From Caldicellulosiruptor acetigenus (GTDB taxonomy: Bacteria; Bacillota; Thermoanaerobacteria; Caldicellulosiruptorales; Caldicellulosiruptoraceae): DNA of 64,000 nt. The translations under genes were made by a program, and so were the position numbers. The DNA lies in the NCBI RefSeq assembly GCF_026914305.1, contig NZ_CP113866.1:2608001-2672000 (forward strand), read 5' to 3'. A model generated the notes under the pieces. The model was given only the letters and a program-made list of their open reading frames with translations, was not told the DNA's origin and did not search any database. Position 1 is the stretch's first letter, and every line of letters begins with the position of its first letter. Positions 802 through 64,000 of the stretch are shown here, one piece after another.

Positions 802-3147
802 TTACCATATATCAGATTGTTCTAATCCTTTTGGTGGTATCAAACCTAATTGGTCATCATATTCGCAATCAAGTATATAGATCCCTAAATCTTTGTTATA
901 ACAACTTGCTCCGCCTTTGGCAAAGAAGTATGCCGGGGCTGTAACGGTATATTTTCTGATGGAGGAAATTAATTTCAATTTTTCTATAGACCTTATAGAC
1001 CTTGAATTTATTTTTTTAAGAGCTTCATTTATTTCTTCGATATTTTTATCAAATATTTCTCTCGGTATGCCAGAAATTGTAACAACATCTCTGAAGATCT
1101 TTTGTGCTTCAATTTTTCTATCTGCTCTGAAGCCAAGTTCTAAAAGTTCATATGCCTTTTTGAATTTACTTATAAAATTGGTACTTGAGAGTGCATCAAT
1201 ATCGTATACATATTCATTTAGCTCTTTCTTGTCATATTCTGTAATTTTATTTTCATCAAATTTTTTCAGAAACTCTTCTGTCCTGTCGACAATCTCTCTC
1301 TGATAAACTTTTCCGATTCCACTTGGGTCTTTGGTCAAAATGATAACATTCGGGCATAGCTCATTATATGGTCTTTTTCTATATACCCTTCCCATTCGCT
1401 GAAGTAGCGAATCTGCCGATGCAAGTTCTGTAAACAAGATATCATAATCTATGTCAAGTGAAGCTTCCACAAGCTGAGTTGATATTACAATACCGTTTTT
1501 TCTGTGATTTGAGATAACAATTTGCTCTTTTTGCCTCTTTTGTCCCTCTAAAAACCTTGAATGCAAAAGTTCAACAGGAATCTCTCCAAACCTTTTTAGA
1601 TTTTCCTTTATAACTTGGTAAACTTCCTGTGACCTTTTTACAGTATTGCATATAACAAGCACATTTTTTTGTTTTGCATGTTCAACTATTTCGTCTACGC
1701 AGTCTAAAATTGAAAGTTCTTTGATTGCAATAATATGAGAATATCTCTTTTTCAGTTCTTCATCTGAATATGCTTGCAAATACTCAGCCCACTCTCCAAG
1801 GTGTTTTAGGATAAGCGGGTTAATTGTTGCACTCATTAAGCAAAACTTTCCATTTAAATTTATGATTTCTTCTAAGGTCTTTATTATAATTGCCAAAGAC
1901 TCTGGAGAGTAGCTCTGCGGTTCATCTATTACAATCTTTGAGTATAAGAATAATGAATAAATCTTTTCAAATCCCGGCCACTTCAAAGCTGATGTAAAAA
2001 TCTGGTCTCCTGTTGTAACAATTATTGGAAGACTTAAATTCTTAGCAAGATCAACGCTATCAAACAGAGCTTCTAACTCTTGATTTTCGCGCTCCAAATT
2101 CAAATATTTTTCAAGTAAATATATCATACTATCTGAGTGCAAAATCCCAACCTTATCCTCGCCAAAGATTTTTGCTAATCTCTCATACATTGCATTGATA
2201 GAAACACGAATTGGAAGAGTGTAAATGAGCTTACTTTTGAATGCCCAGTTTAGCCCAAACTCTGTCTTCCCACTGCCAGTTGGAGCAAATAAAATTACGT
2301 TTTTTTCAGAAAGCTCCATCGCCTTTCTCTGAAAATCTTTAAATCCGGTAAAACTGCACTTGCTCTTCAAATAAACTTCAACCTTTTCAGGGAAATTATT
2401 AATCTTTGCCTCTTCTGCACTGATTCCTGCAGAACTTGAATGGTCAATCCTGTGCAAAAGCCCTTTTAAAAAAATTCTAAAAATCACCTTTTTGTCCGAA
2501 AGGTCATATGAGTCTTTGAACATCAATTCTCTTAATTGATTAATTACCCTATATGTATAATTCGAACTTTCCACTACTTTATCCCTGTCAGGGACTGAAG
2601 GAAGTAACTCAAACAGAGGTTTTAGCGTTTGATTCTCTATATACTTTGAAACGTCCTCACAGATGTATTTATTGAAATATTGGAAATTAACATCAAAATC
2701 TCTGTCATGCGAAAATGCAATTGCAAAAAGTAAATTTTGAAAATCTTCACAGGTAATATTACCTTTTTCAATTTCATCTTCCAAATTGACAAAAACTATA
2801 GATATAAAGTTATGAGGCACCTCCTTAGACAAACCCTTAACTTGAGGTACCTCATGCACTTTTGTCTTATCCCTTATTTTTTGCTGAAATTTCGAATTTG
2901 CCTTGCCCAAATCGTGATATATTATCGCTAATCTTAGAAGATACTTGAGCTTCTGATAGTCTATTTGCAGCCTTTTACAACCTTCTTCAATCTCTTCCTT
3001 ATATTCTTCAAACAGCTTTTCCATGTTATTTAACAAATCCATCGTGTGTTGATATATGGTTTGATATTCACTTCCTTTGTCACTTTTAAATTTCTTGGCA
3101 TAAAGTTCTATATCCTTGTAACTATCAATTTTCATACTCCTCATCAC
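802..3147 (-). CDS. cas3: Cas3 HD nuclease-helicase (type I-B)
   Basis: About 780 residues in the normal Cas3 order. The N-terminal HD nuclease has H34, the HD pair at 78-79 (YHDLGK) and a further HD at 147-148. The superfamily 2 helicase follows, with Walker A APTGSGKT at 288-295, motif II DEPQ at 408-411, motif III SAT at 439-441 and motif VI QRMGRVYR near 585. Cas3 is recruited by Cascade to unwind and degrade target DNA. GTG (3147) and ATG (3144) are both possible starts and overlap the cas5 stop by about 20 nt; ATG 3135 is a third option. All catalytic motifs appear intact. Confidence 0.95.
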   Translation of the reverse strand: MMRSMKIDSYKDIELYAKKFKSDKGSEYQTIYQHTMDLLNNMEKLFEEYKEEIEEGCKRLQIDYQKLKYLLRLAIIYHDLGKANSKFQQKIRDKTKVHEVPQVKGLSKEVPHNFISIVFVNLEDEIEKGNITCEDFQNLLFAIAFSHDRDFDVNFQYFNKYICEDVSKYIENQTLKPLFELLPSVPDRDKVVESSNYTYRVINQLRELMFKDSYDLSDKKVIFRIFLKGLLHRIDHSSSAGISAEEAKINNFPEKVEVYLKSKCSFTGFKDFQRKAMELSEKNVILFAPTGSGKTEFGLNWAFKSKLIYTLPIRVSINAMYERLAKIFGEDKVGILHSDSMIYLLEKYLNLERENQELEALFDSVDLAKNLSLPIIVTTGDQIFTSALKWPGFEKIYSLFLYSKIVIDEPQSYSPESLAIIIKTLEEIINLNGKFCLMSATINPLILKHLGEWAEYLQAYSDEELKKRYSHIIAIKELSILDCVDEIVEHAKQKNVLVICNTVKRSQEVYQVIKENLKRFGEIPVELLHSRFLEGQKRQKEQIVISNHRKNGIVISTQLVEASLDIDYDILFTELASADSLLQRMGRVYRKRPYNELCPNVIILTKDPSGIGKVYQREIVDRTEEFLKKFDENKITEYDKKELNEYVYDIDALSSTNFISKFKKAYELLELGFRADRKIEAQKIFRDVVTISGIPREIFDKNIEEINEALKKINSRSIRSIEKLKLISSIRKYTVTAPAYFFAKGGASCYNKDLGIYILDCEYDDQLGLIPPKGLEQSDIW

Positions 3148-42002: not shown

Positions 42003-42908
42003 CTAAGAGCTTAAGCCTTTTCCCTCAATATTGATGTCAGGGAGCGTCTCAATCATATTTTCATCTATTTGAGGAATTTTTACTTTTTCGCCACTTTCGA
42101 GAACTTCTGATAATGATTTAATCAGATATGGCTGATTGCTTACATTTATGGTATAGAAAGACTCAATTAAGCGTATATTTTTGTCTTTCTTATCAATAAA
42201 GTATACATAAACGAGATCGCTGAATTTAAATTGAGCTAAATACATGTCAAGCTGTTTTTCCCATGTCTTCACATCGTTTGATGAATATTTAGGATTTAAA
42301 ATCTTTAGCCTTTCAAGAGAATACGACTTTAAATACTCTTTCATAACACCTTCAAAATATTTAGCAGGTACTTGGACCTTGACCTTGTATACAGGGATTT
42401 TTGTGTTGTTGGTATTCAAATAGGTCTCTTCAACTACTGTTTTTTGTTTTAAAACGAGCTCATAAATCTTTTTCTCTCTTTTCTCAAAAACTGGATTTAT
42501 TTCAGACAGTCCTGAAGAAGCAAAAAATAACTTATATATCTGGCTATTTTCTGGAACTTCGCAAATAATAAAAGAATCTGCTGGACTTTTTATGTAAAGT
42601 TTTTTATCCCTCACAAAATAGATAGTATCATCCGTTTGTGAAATGATATAAAATTGATTATTTTTCCTATCCAGAATCAGTTCTTCCTGATAACTCAACA
42701 ACCCAAGCTCATAACTTTGAGGAGTTATCACTGTTGTTTGTTTGAACCTAACTTTAGATGCTTTATTTAAGCTATCTAACGCATCTTTCAAGGAAATATT
42801 AAACGCTGTTTTGTTAGATTGCGCATTTCCTGTGGAACTTGAATATAAAATAGTTAAAAGGCAAATTGAAAGGAAAATACATAATACAAAGGCGGCTTTC
42901 TTTCTCAT
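42003..42908 (-). CDS. Exported protein of unknown function
   Basis: 301 residues with an N-terminal signal segment (KKAAFVLCIFLSICLLTILY, likely cleaved after GNA). The mature part alternates strands and charged helices (RFKQTTVITPQSYELGLLSY, LILDRKNNQFYIISQTDD) in a manner reminiscent of LolA-like or outer-surface carrier folds. No motif proves this. No lipobox. It is followed by a TnpB remnant and preceded by a strongly structured 5' region (42932-43212) on its transcribed strand. Confidence 0.7.
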   Translation of the reverse strand: MRKKAAFVLCIFLSICLLTILYSSSTGNAQSNKTAFNISLKDALDSLNKASKVRFKQTTVITPQSYELGLLSYQEELILDRKNNQFYIISQTDDTIYFVRDKKLYIKSPADSFIICEVPENSQIYKLFFASSGLSEINPVFEKREKKIYELVLKQKTVVEETYLNTNNTKIPVYKVKVQVPAKYFEGVMKEYLKSYSLERLKILNPKYSSNDVKTWEKQLDMYLAQFKFSDLVYVYFIDKKDKNIRLIESFYTINVSNQPYLIKSLSEVLESGEKVKIPQIDENMIETLPDINIEGKGLSS

Positions 42909-42931
42909 GGTTACTTTCCCCCTTAGGTTAT

Positions 42932-43212
42932 GAATAGTGTTTAAAGTATTAAAAACTATTCATAATTTTATTAAACACTATTCTTTGTTAGGCTACATTC
43001 AACCTAACTGGGTGTAACCCCACACCCTCTATCCCCTCTGCAAACGCTTTGGGGAATACTTTCTAATTCTTGATTGGTTAACTCCCTTATGCACACCATT
43101 ATTTTGGCGTCTAACTATACAAGACTTTTAGTCTTGCAGTGAGCGAATCCCACCAAGGGGCTCTCAACCTCTGTGCATAAGTTCATAGTCCCTTAGAATT
43201 AAGAAAGTACAA
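42932..43212. other. Structured non-coding region, class unknown
   Basis: A chain of hairpins: GAATAGTGTTTAA/TTAAACACTATTC (42932, 42971), GTTAGG/CCTAAC (42987, 43003), GGGTGT/ACACCC (43010-43027), CCCC/GGGG near 43034-43054, and ACAAGACT/AGTCTTG near 43120. A long-range pair TTATGCACA/TGTGCATAA encloses the last. An outer near-match, TACTTTCTAATTCT versus AGAATTAAGAAAGTA, closes about 145 nt. No coding frame. It could be a long 5' leader of the 42908 gene, a mobile-element end or a guide-like RNA. Strand not certain. Confidence 0.5.
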
Positions 43213-43389
43213 GTATATTTTAACAAAAATTTTTAATATATCTCAATAGATTTATTAAAGTTTTTAACTATATAAAGAAGCTGTAAACTTTCTCAAATAA
43301 TTATGTAAAAATTATAATGTTTACTACAAAATATTTCAACTCCTTTTTTTGTTAACTTAGTATAGAAGATTTAGGGTATTCATTTTCTA

Positions 43390-43726
43390 TCATAGCTGCA
43401 TACCTTGCAAGATAGGATTGAAGGCACGTGGTGTTCTCCCATTCATTCTTTTATCATTATGAGGCCTGAAGAAATTCCATGTATCTTGCCATCTTTGAGC
43501 TCTTTGGATAAATTCATCTTTTGTTTTGCATCTTTTAACATGAATCATCAAAAAATACTCATCATCCGCTCTATGTGAACTTTCAATTATACCCATCAAG
43601 CATTTTGCTTATAGTGGAACGGGAGACTTTCTTTGTCTAAAAGATGCCTCTCTTTTTAATTATATCAAACAGGATGGTGGCTGCCTCAACTCTTTTTATA
43701 ACTTTCTCCTTAGTGTTTTCGTACAT
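43390..43726 (-). pseudogene. Remnant DDE transposase (IS481/IS3-like)
   Basis: The C-terminal 69 residues are intact (GIIESSHRADDEYF, DTWNFFRPHNDKRMNGRTP), the typical end of an rve integrase core. Near 43726 an ATG opens MYENTKEKVIKRVEAATILF as an N-terminus, and VSRSTISKMLDGY appears between, interrupted by stops. The central catalytic region is missing, so the element is dead. No terminal repeats or target duplication were seen. Confidence 0.75.
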
Positions 43727-43812
43727 TCTTTTTCTGTGGTAAATATCTTTATATCTATTTGAATACTTTAAAGTATAATAATTTGTGGTATAATAATTTT
43801 GAGGTGAAAATA

Positions 43813-45558: not shown

Positions 45559-45954
45559 GTTTGTAGCCTTCCCGTTGGGGATTGAAACACCTCGTCCAAA
45601 ACTTCTGGCAATTCACTCTCGGCGGTTTGTAGCCTTCCCTTTGGGGATTGAAATTGCGATAGGAGGCGTTGACCTGTCAAGCACTACAGAGTTTGTAGCC
45701 TTCCCTTTGGGGATTGAAACGGCACTATAAACAGTGCCACTTTCCACCAATTCATTGTTTGTAGCCTCCCCTTTGGGGATTGAGGAGGGAGAGGAGTTAT
45801 AGCCTTCCAGTTGGGGATTGAAAGCCATTCTGATTTTGCTTTAGGTGTCTTAATAGGTATGTTCGTAGCCTCCTCTTTGGAAATTGAAACCCGCATAAGG
45901 TGAGATACTTGTCATAAACTCCAGTTTGTAGCATCCCCCTTTGTGGATTGAAAA
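45559..45954 (+). CRISPR. CRISPR array A (7 repeats, progressively degenerate)
   Basis: 30-nt repeats at 45559, 45625, 45691, 45757, 45796, 45861 and 45924. The first three are near-consensus (repeat 1 has T16G; repeat 2 ends in T). Repeat 4 is the mutated terminal form (T12C, end AGGA). Repeats 5-7 are fossil. The three proximal spacers are 36 nt each; after repeat 4 they are about 11, 36 and 33 nt. Spacer 3 contains a GGCACT/AGTGCC palindrome. Repeat direction is plus, read from leader A. Confidence 0.95.
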
Positions 45955-47766: not shown

Positions 47767-48090
47767 ATGAAGCGTTTAGTAATAAAGTACATTCAAGAAT
47801 GCTTCAAAAAGGATATGTTTACATTATCAGCACATGCTTTGCAAAGAATGAAGGAAAGAAAAATAACTCTTGAAGAAATAAAAGACTGTATTATAAAAGG
47901 GGAAACAATTGAAATACAAGATTTTTTTAAAGATGTACACGTTTTGTTTCAGGAAAGTTCTGATAGACCTGGTATTTACGTTGTTGTAGCAGCTTGTAAT
48001 CCCCCAATGGTTGTAACTGTTTGTAGAACAAAAGATGAAATATGGGAAGTGTGTAATGGAATATTGAAGAGGAGGAAAAAGGGGAAATGA
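47767..48090 (+). CDS. DUF4258 protein, probable toxin of a toxin-antitoxin pair
   Basis: 107 residues: FTLSAHALQRMKERKITLEE, then GIYVVVAACNPPMVVTVCRTK. This is the DUF4258 pattern related to RelE/BrnT RNase folds. It overlaps the next gene by 4 nt (ATGA), and DUF4258-YgiT pairs are a known arrangement. Extended -10 TGGTATAAT lies about 30 nt upstream; ribosome site weak. It follows CRISPR array B directly. Confidence 0.8.
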   Translation: MKRLVIKYIQECFKKDMFTLSAHALQRMKERKITLEEIKDCIIKGETIEIQDFFKDVHVLFQESSDRPGIYVVVAACNPPMVVTVCRTKDEIWEVCNGILKRRKKGK

Positions 48091-48500
48091 GTAAAAAATG
48101 CTTTTTTTGTGGAGCAGAAATGAAGAAAGAAATAACAAATGTTGAAAGCGGATGGGGAGAATACACTTTCAAAATAGAGGGTGTTCATGCTTATGTTTGT
48201 TATGAATGTGGGGAAAAAATATTTGAACCAAAAGAAGCTGAAATGATTCTGGAGTTAGGCAGAGCTTTAAGTTTCTTGCCAAATGAAGAAAGACCTGCTC
48301 CAAATGAAGTCCTCGACATCAATGGAATTCACGATTTCTTGAAAATTTTGAGCAGCTCAATATTTAGTTTGATAACTAATAAAGATATCAAACTACAGAG
48401 AAAAAAAAATAAATGGTTTTTTCAAACAGAAAATTTACTCAAAGTTCTGTACAACGGGACTAGTCTTCATAATAACGACTACAATGCCCTGGGATTATGA
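48087..48500 (+). CDS. YgiT-type zinc-finger protein, probable antitoxin
   Basis: 137 residues. The N-terminal 65 carry two CxxC pairs (KCFFCGAEM, YVCYECGEKIF) of a YgiT/MqsA-like zinc finger, with EPKEAEMILELGRALS after. The usual antitoxin ends near residue 75-80. Here about 60 further residues (DINGIHDFLKILSSSI, then DYNALGL) continue without recognisable similarity, perhaps an altered or read-through C-terminus. ATGA overlap with the DUF4258 gene indicates coupling. Confidence 0.75.
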   Translation: MSKKCFFCGAEMKKEITNVESGWGEYTFKIEGVHAYVCYECGEKIFEPKEAEMILELGRALSFLPNEERPAPNEVLDINGIHDFLKILSSSIFSLITNKDIKLQRKKNKWFFQTENLLKVLYNGTSLHNNDYNALGL

Positions 48501-48766: not shown

Positions 48767-48976
48767 GTTTGTAGCCTTCCCTTTGGGGATTGAAACTCTA
48801 CAAATTCCAAAATACCTGGTACTCAGAGAGGGTTTGTAGCCTCCCCTTTGGGGATTGAGGAGGGGGTTTTAGCCCTCCTTTTTGGAGTTTGAAGGCTTGA
48901 AAAAGCGTTTTATAGCCTTCTTTTCGGAGATTGAGGGGGAAGGAGAGAGTTTAGCCTTCCCAAGTGGTGATTGAGG
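48767..48976 (+). CRISPR. CRISPR array C (one spacer, then fossil repeats)
   Basis: Consensus repeat 48767-48796, a 35-nt spacer, then the mutated terminal repeat at 48832 (T12C, end AGGA). Fossil repeats follow at about 48866, 48907 and 48949, separated by roughly 4-12 nt. Confidence 0.85.
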
Positions 48977-49112: not shown

Positions 49113-49604
49113 TCATTTTTCTTTTGCTTGTTTTAGAATTTCTTCAACAAGTTGAGGAGAAATTCTTATGTTCTCTTCAATCAACTTTTTTATAAGCGGT
49201 TCTATTTGACTAACAAGCCCAACTTCTTTTGCTTTTAATAAAATTCCCAAGGAACCTGTTAGTCTCAGCCCCAATAGTTTGGCAACACTCCTTCCTTTCT
49301 TCTCGTCCATTATTAATAAATCCGCATTTGATTCCTTTGCCAATATAATGGTTTCGCTTTCTCCTTTATCGATGGCCTGTGTTCTTTGCAAGATTTCTGC
49401 TGCAAATTCATTTCTTAACTCTTTAATTTTTAAAAATGCAGCATTCATTATTCTACCTTTTTCTTCCTCAAACTTTGAACTGTACGTAAGTTCGTGATAA
49501 ACACTTGGAGAAATATATACAGTACCAAACAAATTTTCTAAAATATCTAATCTCTCCAGTTTCGCAAATACTATTATAGGTGTGGTATTAGAAACTACTA
49601 TCAC
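49113..49604 (-). CDS. DUF3368 PIN-like toxin
   Basis: 163 residues of the DUF3368 family, PIN-fold RNases: N-terminal VVSNTTPIIVFAKLE (first acidic position), IDKGESETIILAKE and LLIMDEKKGRSVAKLLGL hold the conserved acidic residues. It lies 10 nt downstream of a UPF0175 gene, forming a well-known toxin-antitoxin pair. Lies opposite in strand to the CRISPR cassettes on both sides. Confidence 0.9.
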   Translation of the reverse strand: MIVVSNTTPIIVFAKLERLDILENLFGTVYISPSVYHELTYSSKFEEEKGRIMNAAFLKIKELRNEFAAEILQRTQAIDKGESETIILAKESNADLLIMDEKKGRSVAKLLGLRLTGSLGILLKAKEVGLVSQIEPLIKKLIEENIRISPQLVEEILKQAKEK

Positions 49605-49614
49605 ATTCTATCAC

Positions 49615-49881
49615 CTACATTTTCTCGATTGCATTCTTGTCCTCTATCACTTCTTCAATTGATTGGTCAAAATAATTGATACCATATTCACTTAGTTCCT
49701 TAATCAACTCAATTTTTGACATACCTAAAATTTCTGCTCCCTTACCAAACGAAATCTTCTCATCTTTTATCAATTTATAGATAATCAACTCTTTTAATAC
49801 CTTATCGTTGGTTATTTCATTTAGAGAAATGTAGTTTAATATTTCCTTTGGAAGTTCTATCTCAATTTTTATTCCTTCCAT
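49615..49881 (-). CDS. UPF0175 antitoxin
   Basis: 88 residues of the UPF0175 family: an N-terminal strand EIELPKEILNYI, then the helix-turn-helix-like KISFGKGAEILGMSKIELIKEL. These small proteins bind DNA and neutralise DUF3368 toxins. It is the first gene of the pair. Confidence 0.9.
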   Translation of the reverse strand: MEGIKIEIELPKEILNYISLNEITNDKVLKELIIYKLIKDEKISFGKGAEILGMSKIELIKELSEYGINYFDQSIEEVIEDKNAIEKM

Positions 49882-50402: not shown

Positions 50403-50497
50403 GTTTGTAGCCTTCCCTTTGGGGATTGAAACATAACTGAATCATCCACAACAACCCCTTTCTTTCCGTTTGTAGCCTCCCCTTTGGGGATTGATGA
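50403..50497 (+). CRISPR. CRISPR array D (two repeats, one spacer)
   Basis: Consensus repeat 50403-50432, a 35-nt spacer and a terminal repeat at 50468-50497 with T12C and end ATGA, close to the terminal form in arrays A-C. No fossil repeats follow. Confidence 0.85.
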
Positions 50498-63719: not shown

Positions 63720-64000
63720 GTTTGTAGCCTTCCCTTTGGGGATTGAAACATAAGCATGGTTTCAACATAACGTATGCTAACTGCAGTTTGTAGCCTTCCC
63801 TTTGGGGATTGAAACCCTCTTGTTTTGGTTTAATGCTTCACAACTCCACACTTAGTTTGTAGCCTTCCCTTTGGGGATTGAAACAGAAGAACAAGGAAAG
63901 GGGGTATTACGATGACGGTGTGTTTGTAGCCTTCCCTTTGGGGATTGAAACTTTTTGTCAATTATCCTTGCCATCCTATCAATTTCGAGTTTGTAGCCTT
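63720..64000 (+). CRISPR. CRISPR array E (intact, continues past the window)
   Basis: Perfect 30-nt repeats at 63720, 63786, 63855 and 63922, and a fifth at 63989 cut by the edge. Spacers are 36, 39, 37 and 37 nt, all different. The repeat carries a TCCC/GGGGA stem and ends GATTGAAAC. Transcribed from leader E, away from cas10. Confidence 0.98.

Follow-up and report, generated by a model that had tools for sequence, protein, structure and literature searches.

The hairpin-rich block at positions 42932-43212 of the window (the whole stretch of 64,000 nucleotides of Caldicellulosiruptor acetigenus DNA that was analyzed) makes up most of a 343-bp mobile element at 42926-43268, and the strand that matters is the minus strand. 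The element has IS607 ends, has lost both genes of that family except for 24 codons of tnpB, and carries a covarying 153-nt RNA domain; sites empty of it were found in related genomes. We consider it probable that the block is a satellite (non-autonomous) IS607 element, which depends on TnpA in trans for movement and on TnpB in trans for guidance, and whose RNA has gained a 5' domain. A first-pass annotation had taken 42932-43212 as the unit and placed it in a region without genes. The real unit proved larger, and although the region contains no complete gene, a TnpB C-terminus of 24 residues, with its stop, is encoded at 43062-42988. The parts of the element are as follows.

42926..43268, minus strand: whole non-autonomous IS607-family element, 343 bp (8-copy alignment, exact empty site of the sister copy L002, and empty site at the window locus in genomes G005 and G009)
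43210..43268, minus strand: left end, common to complete IS607 elements (sequence comparison)
43057..43209, minus strand: 5' structured RNA domain, 153 nt, class unassigned (nine aligned copies, covariation, no convincing Rfam match)
42988..43062, minus strand: last 24 codons and stop of an IS607-type TnpB (tblastn, 24 of 25 positions identical, stop counted)
42926..43056, minus strand: putative TnpB omega-RNA scaffold and right end, 131 nt (24 distinct tails aligned, five helices counted; it ends tnpB copies)
42932..42983, minus strand: right-end hairpin GAAUAGUGUUUAA/UUAAACACUAUUC (helix counting in tails)

The element thus consists of an IS607-family left end, the structured domain (43209-43057), and the TnpB C-terminal codons with the right end (43062-42926). 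It has no transposase or nuclease gene, the 24 codons being the sole remnant of tnpB, and since it encodes no TnpA itself it is a non-autonomous derivative.

Relatives without the element were found for three of its sites, those of the window copy, L002, and L058. The L002 site is empty in all seven relatives examined, of 11 matching the flank (exactly in three, with small changes in four). Three relatives read GAATATGATGTAT there, and the filled site consists of GAATATG, the element, and TGATGTAT, an exact junction with a shared TG dinucleotide. Because this empty site fixes the ends, those of the window copy were set at 42926-43268, with TA dinucleotides flanking it at 42924-42925 and 43269-43270. 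The window site is empty in G005 and G009, which have the same gene and promoter-like site; read by eye, the empty site has the expected length in G009 and about 24 extra bases in G005. At the L058 site, the element is absent from all nine relatives examined, of 13 matching the flank. Insertion is precise and leaves no long target-site duplication. The target dinucleotide at the ends is TA or TG, and by eye it is equal at both ends in five of eight copies, differing in L049, L032, and L034. The window copy was placed inside the 5' untranslated region of a host gene, between its promoter-like site and start codon and in the same orientation.

42003..42908, minus strand: host gene with the 5' untranslated region that received the element (Pfam and NCBIfam searched, no match)
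43311..43339, minus strand: the host gene's promoter-like site, TTGAAA-17-TATAAT, present also at empty sites (read by eye)

Other copies adjoin unrelated genes. Three of the nine (L002, L050, and L058) were found within the final codons, or at the stop, of a gene that points the same way; named by eye, these genes are a lytic-transglycosylase-like gene, a PRPP-synthetase-like gene, and rho. All three obtain a stop codon from the left end within 14 nt, and by eye the change to the product in L002 and L058 is limited to its last few residues. Outside these three and the window copy, no co-oriented open reading frame of at least 60 aa ends less than 30 nt away, and for L032 and L034 none appears. 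Mid-gene insertion was not observed for any copy.

The suggestion that the block is a transposon-end or guide-RNA-like RNA was borne out, as the same tail ends tnpB genes elsewhere in the genome and in relatives, but the family named, IS200/IS605, was the wrong one. In L066, a relative that is almost complete, the left end is the same and is followed by a frameshifted serine recombinase and then TnpB. Against the NCBIfam model NF033518 for IS607 transposases (cut-off 110), L099, an intact 219-aa recombinase that belongs to this subfamily, reaches 187.7 bits, and the TnpB of L003 reaches 221.1 bits against the NCBIfam RNA-guided TnpB model (cut-off 100). These scores and the layout of L066 identify the parent family as IS607 and not IS200/IS605; the window element belongs to it by ends held in common with an element that encodes an IS607 serine-recombinase TnpA.

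The supply of these proteins differs between the host and its relatives. In the host genome, a search for TnpA of the subfamily (E up to 1e-10) found one 51-aa piece only, elsewhere than the element, so the window copy cannot now be moved there by a TnpA of its own subfamily. The intact TnpA reading frame of L099 is in a relative, and other relatives have open frames of about 240 aa. The host does have four TnpB reading frames of about 400 aa, three with all three RuvC-region strings searched and one (L006) without the third as written. Use of TnpB in trans is thus possible in the host strain today.

The first-pass annotation had also seen a TnpB relic 1 kb away on the minus strand. The L066 TnpB, run by tblastn against the whole window (E up to 0.01), matched only 43062-42988, inside the block itself. 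Minus-strand positions 43390-43760 hold the relic of a multi-copy insertion sequence that is not TnpB; for a full relative of this relic (L088), the best model was an IS481 transposase at 117.6 bits, below the cut-off of 224. Elsewhere in the window, CRISPR-DR2 repeats lie on the minus strand at 45559-45720, 48767-48796, 50403-50432, and 63720-63951, some as single or very short groups, and two small gene pairs at 47767-48500 (plus strand) and 49113-49881 (minus strand) gave a toxin-antitoxin-like impression from the translations of their open reading frames.

Looking for the block in other genomes had been proposed as the check on its nature, and it turned out to be multi-copy, with its 3' part also ending tnpB genes. 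The host genome has one more full copy (91% identity over 324 bp) and four further occurrences of the 3' part alone, and 19 of 61 genomes, the host and relatives, have some match to the block at E up to 0.001. The copies are of two kinds. In the first, represented by L003 to L006 among others, the block's final ~138 nt form the end of a TnpB gene, whose ~400 codons are intact in most copies and broken in some. The second kind comprises nine copies: the window copy, L002, L031, L049, L032, L033, L050, L034, and the damaged L058. In all nine, the 153-nt domain runs directly into the tail, which leaves no space for tnpB. Mean pairwise identity among eight copies was 0.87 for the domain, 0.90 for the tail, and 0.64 for a 75-nt slice at the left that includes host flank.

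A model of the domain (R1) found the nine copies in five of 37 genomes of the class and two of its eight genera. Run with stricter filters on 398 sampled genomes from the phylum, R1 found the same two genera and no further genus; with such filters and sampling, weak or rare relatives of the domain may escape. Scanning genome_contigs with a core pattern returned four stretches from two assemblies, Caldanaerobacter subterraneus DSM 13054 and one Clostridia metagenome-assembled genome, a non-exhaustive result and no census, since copies in G005 and G030 that fit the pattern were not returned. Among phages and plasmids, the domain together with its left end was matched only over short stretches, with E no lower than 0.05, and viral contigs scanned with two patterns gave no match.

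Decayed copies also exist. L058 has internal deletions, and L044 (positions 1416-1579, minus strand, in G003) is a fragment, left out of the nine copies, that retains the left end with the beginning of the domain. A fluoride riboswitch (RF01734, 49.4 bits) follows immediately, and the fragment may lend it a promoter. Other derivatives arose by deletion within tnpB: in L129 (G030) and L043/L130 (G023), TnpB residues 1 to about 122 or 126 are joined to a shortened tail. L129 and L043 have no 5' domain, so the domain is no general feature of tnpB loss.

The stems claimed for the block are real. As RNA, 42932-43212 folds with z = -7.35 on the plus strand and -6.31 on the minus strand, and on neither strand did any of 200 dinucleotide shuffles fold equally well. 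Both the outer pair and the TTATGCACA/TGTGCATAA pair lie as originally placed, the latter within a 10-bp helix of 43181-43172 with 43095-43086. The 153- to 163-nt domain alone gave z of -3.9, -4.8, -4.2, -2.6, and -2.6 in the five copies tried. Within the domain, the following pairings were counted in the nine-copy alignment.

43196..43209, minus strand: outer closing helix, 5' strand (partner 43057-43069), 13 pairs, 98.2% of cells paired, one pair changed on both sides
43057..43069, minus strand: outer closing helix, 3' strand (partner 43196-43209)
43172..43181, minus strand: long-range helix CUUAUGCACA, 5' strand (partner 43086-43095), three of 10 pairs changed on both sides
43086..43095, minus strand: long-range helix, 3' strand (partner 43172-43181)
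43118..43138, minus strand: apical AAGACU hairpin, two of nine pairs changed on both sides
43155..43194, minus strand: possible pseudoknot of AAGGG (43194-43190) with CCCUU (43159-43155), crossing the long-range helix, five pairs, 90.5% of cells paired, one changed on both sides

With the structure supplied to the model, pairing is kept in 96.9% of cells, and it falls to 32 to 46% when partners are slid by 1 to 3 columns. Six pairs of the domain changed on both sides, against a shuffled mean of 1.7 and none of 500 shuffles as high, and such changes occur in each of the outer helix, the long-range helix, and the apical hairpin. Kinship among the copies inflates these counts, so we take the covariation as good, but not overwhelming, evidence that the 5' domain is a conserved RNA structure. 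The inner pairing is ambiguous, with an alternative folding that scores almost equally and minimum-energy folds that differ between single copies, and the 5-bp pseudoknot is suggestive only.

The domain had no convincing match in Rfam (window copy at E up to 5; L049 and L034 at E up to 10). One candidate, ARRPOF RNA (RF02933), scored 23.6 bits over a short stretch of the window copy against a cut-off of 127.2 and was rejected, as it appeared in one copy only and not in L049 or L034. Genome-wide, ARRPOF had no match in the host and two in G012, one of 21.0 bits that covers the tail of tnpA and one of 18.3 bits in DNA that looks coding by eye. A peptide read from the AUG in GACGAUGAAC was likewise rejected because 1-nt gaps in L049, L032, and L050 (by eye) shift its frame.

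Downstream of the domain, the tail resembles a TnpB guide (omega) RNA: a conserved structured RNA spans the 3' end of tnpB and the right end of the transposon. Its five helices are kept in 99.2% of cells across 24 distinct tails. Because the tail varies little, its covariation is modest, with two pairs changed on both sides and 13 of 500 shuffles as high; in one tnpB copy (L041), the two strands of one helix each have an additional base, and these two are able to pair. The 5' domain joins just before the first helix of the tail, and so the small element retains the full tail structure. Binding and guiding of TnpB by this putative scaffold are our proposal. Two further stretches would matter for such an RNA.

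43217..43246, minus strand: left-end promoter-like site of the window copy, TTGAGA-18-TAAAAT (consensus match only)
42904..42925, minus strand: flank that would be read as guide if the tail is an omega RNA, overlapping the host gene's ribosome-binding site and start codon (assigned by position)

The left end of four of eight small copies contains TTGACA-17-TAAAAT or TAGAAT, with a start expected close to the 5' end of the domain, and the others have related sites (TTGATA-17-TAAAAT in L050, TTGAAT-17-TAAAAT in L002, and TTGACA with a poor -10 in L034); the site of the window copy is weaker than in other copies. TTGACA was found at that place in none of six left ends examined from complete or tnpB-bearing copies. 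By consensus match, then, the left end carries a candidate promoter from which transcription would start near the domain.

Guide RNAs of TnpB are thought to aid the persistence of transposons, and the small element could exploit this as follows. Since its ends are shared and no such gene lies inside it, we infer that IS607 TnpA supplied in trans would move it. Its RNA would be initiated by the left-end promoter, so as to start with the 5' domain or slightly ahead of it, or come by read-through from the upstream gene, and would continue as one molecule through the tail, which would serve as omega-RNA scaffold, the adjoining host sequence being the guide. Complete copies could provide TnpB that binds this RNA in trans and cuts alleles that have no element, and retention of the element would be favored. 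The conserved 5' domain, which has no assigned class, may form a compact, closed 5' end that stabilizes or insulates a guide RNA no longer derived from tnpB mRNA, a role that we put forward tentatively. A bolder and rather doubtful idea is that the domain represents a new functional RNA class fused to the TnpB guide RNA, in a two-part satellite RNA that makes use of two proteins from another transposon and whose 5' half has an activity of its own, such as protein binding, catalysis, or recruitment of TnpA or TnpB.

Three other explanations were weighed. The element might be a dead relic that arose by deletion, picked up a structured RNA by accident, and has no present function; the lack of an intact TnpA of the subfamily in this genome and the decay of L058 and L044 would fit. 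However, copies in two genera differ by changes on both sides of pairs, and the domain is conserved almost as well as the tail. Both observations point to selection that acted once the element existed, and a promoter-like site is retained in several copies; we judge a relic unlikely. The first-pass annotation had also offered a regulatory 5' leader of the gene at 42003-42908, which would suit a block that shares the orientation of this gene, follows its promoter-like site, and precedes its start codon. That position stood, but conserved regulation was rejected: the two orthologues among the matches listed (G005 and G009) have no element, so the gene came to lie downstream by insertion. With other copies beside unrelated genes and a tail that is multi-copy, a leader function is very improbable.

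The 5' domain might instead be a catalytic or splicing RNA that makes insertions harmless, as in an IStron with another ribozyme in place of the group I intron. The layout is that of IS607-type (group B) IStrons, for which the available text of PMC4227781 lists copies with no open reading frame, the domain has a candidate pseudoknot, and three of the nine copies (L002, L050, and L058) touch the end of a co-oriented gene. At precisely those three, though, splicing is not needed, because the left end gives a stop within 14 nt and, in L002 and L058, few last residues are changed. Moreover, the domain is just 153 nt long, Rfam intron and ribozyme families gave no match at E up to 5 or 10, and mid-gene copies were not seen. 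We therefore think a splicing role quite improbable and favor a satellite element served in trans. If that is correct, a gene-less copy that keeps a guide RNA and has added a conserved RNA domain would be a satellite of another element's transposase and RNA-guided nuclease, and it would offer a natural test of whether TnpB serves elements that do not encode it, and of how an extra 5' domain affects the supply of guide RNA.

A literature search by title and start of abstract, with subscription papers mostly beyond reach, found no description of this element, and its nearest relations lie among several known systems. PATEs and other TnpB-derived miniature elements are gene-less and have the ends of TnpB-bearing insertion sequences; the present element differs from PATEs in its added conserved RNA domain and in having IS607 rather than IS605 ends. 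With IS607 insertion sequences it shares the left and right ends, the lack of a long target duplication, the C-terminal codons of TnpB, and the 3' tail, but it has no tnpA, keeps only 24 codons of tnpB, and has the extra 153-nt domain. Its ends also show TA or TG, in contrast to the GG-containing targets given for IS607 in the available text of PMC4227781. The tail resembles TnpB omega RNAs or reRNAs, such as the RAGATH-18 RNAs of IS607 (PMC11061315, available text), in its position at the 3' end of tnpB and the right end, its richness in stems, and the host flank that follows; unlike them, it is detached from tnpB and joined to a new 5' domain. RAGATH-18 reRNAs are reported there as independent of coding sequence; the present tail, by contrast, overlaps the tnpB terminus, and neither RAGATH-18 nor another Rfam family appeared for the tail among the matches listed. 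IStrons, which combine a group I intron with IS605 or IS607, likewise join a structured RNA to IS607 ends, and a type with no open reading frame is listed in the available text of PMC4227781. They differ in that no group I intron was detected here (Intron_gpI at E up to 5 for the window copy and up to 10 for L049 and L034) and in that the domain has only about 150 nt. As far as that text goes, IStrons of the IS607 type are the closest published arrangement that we found.
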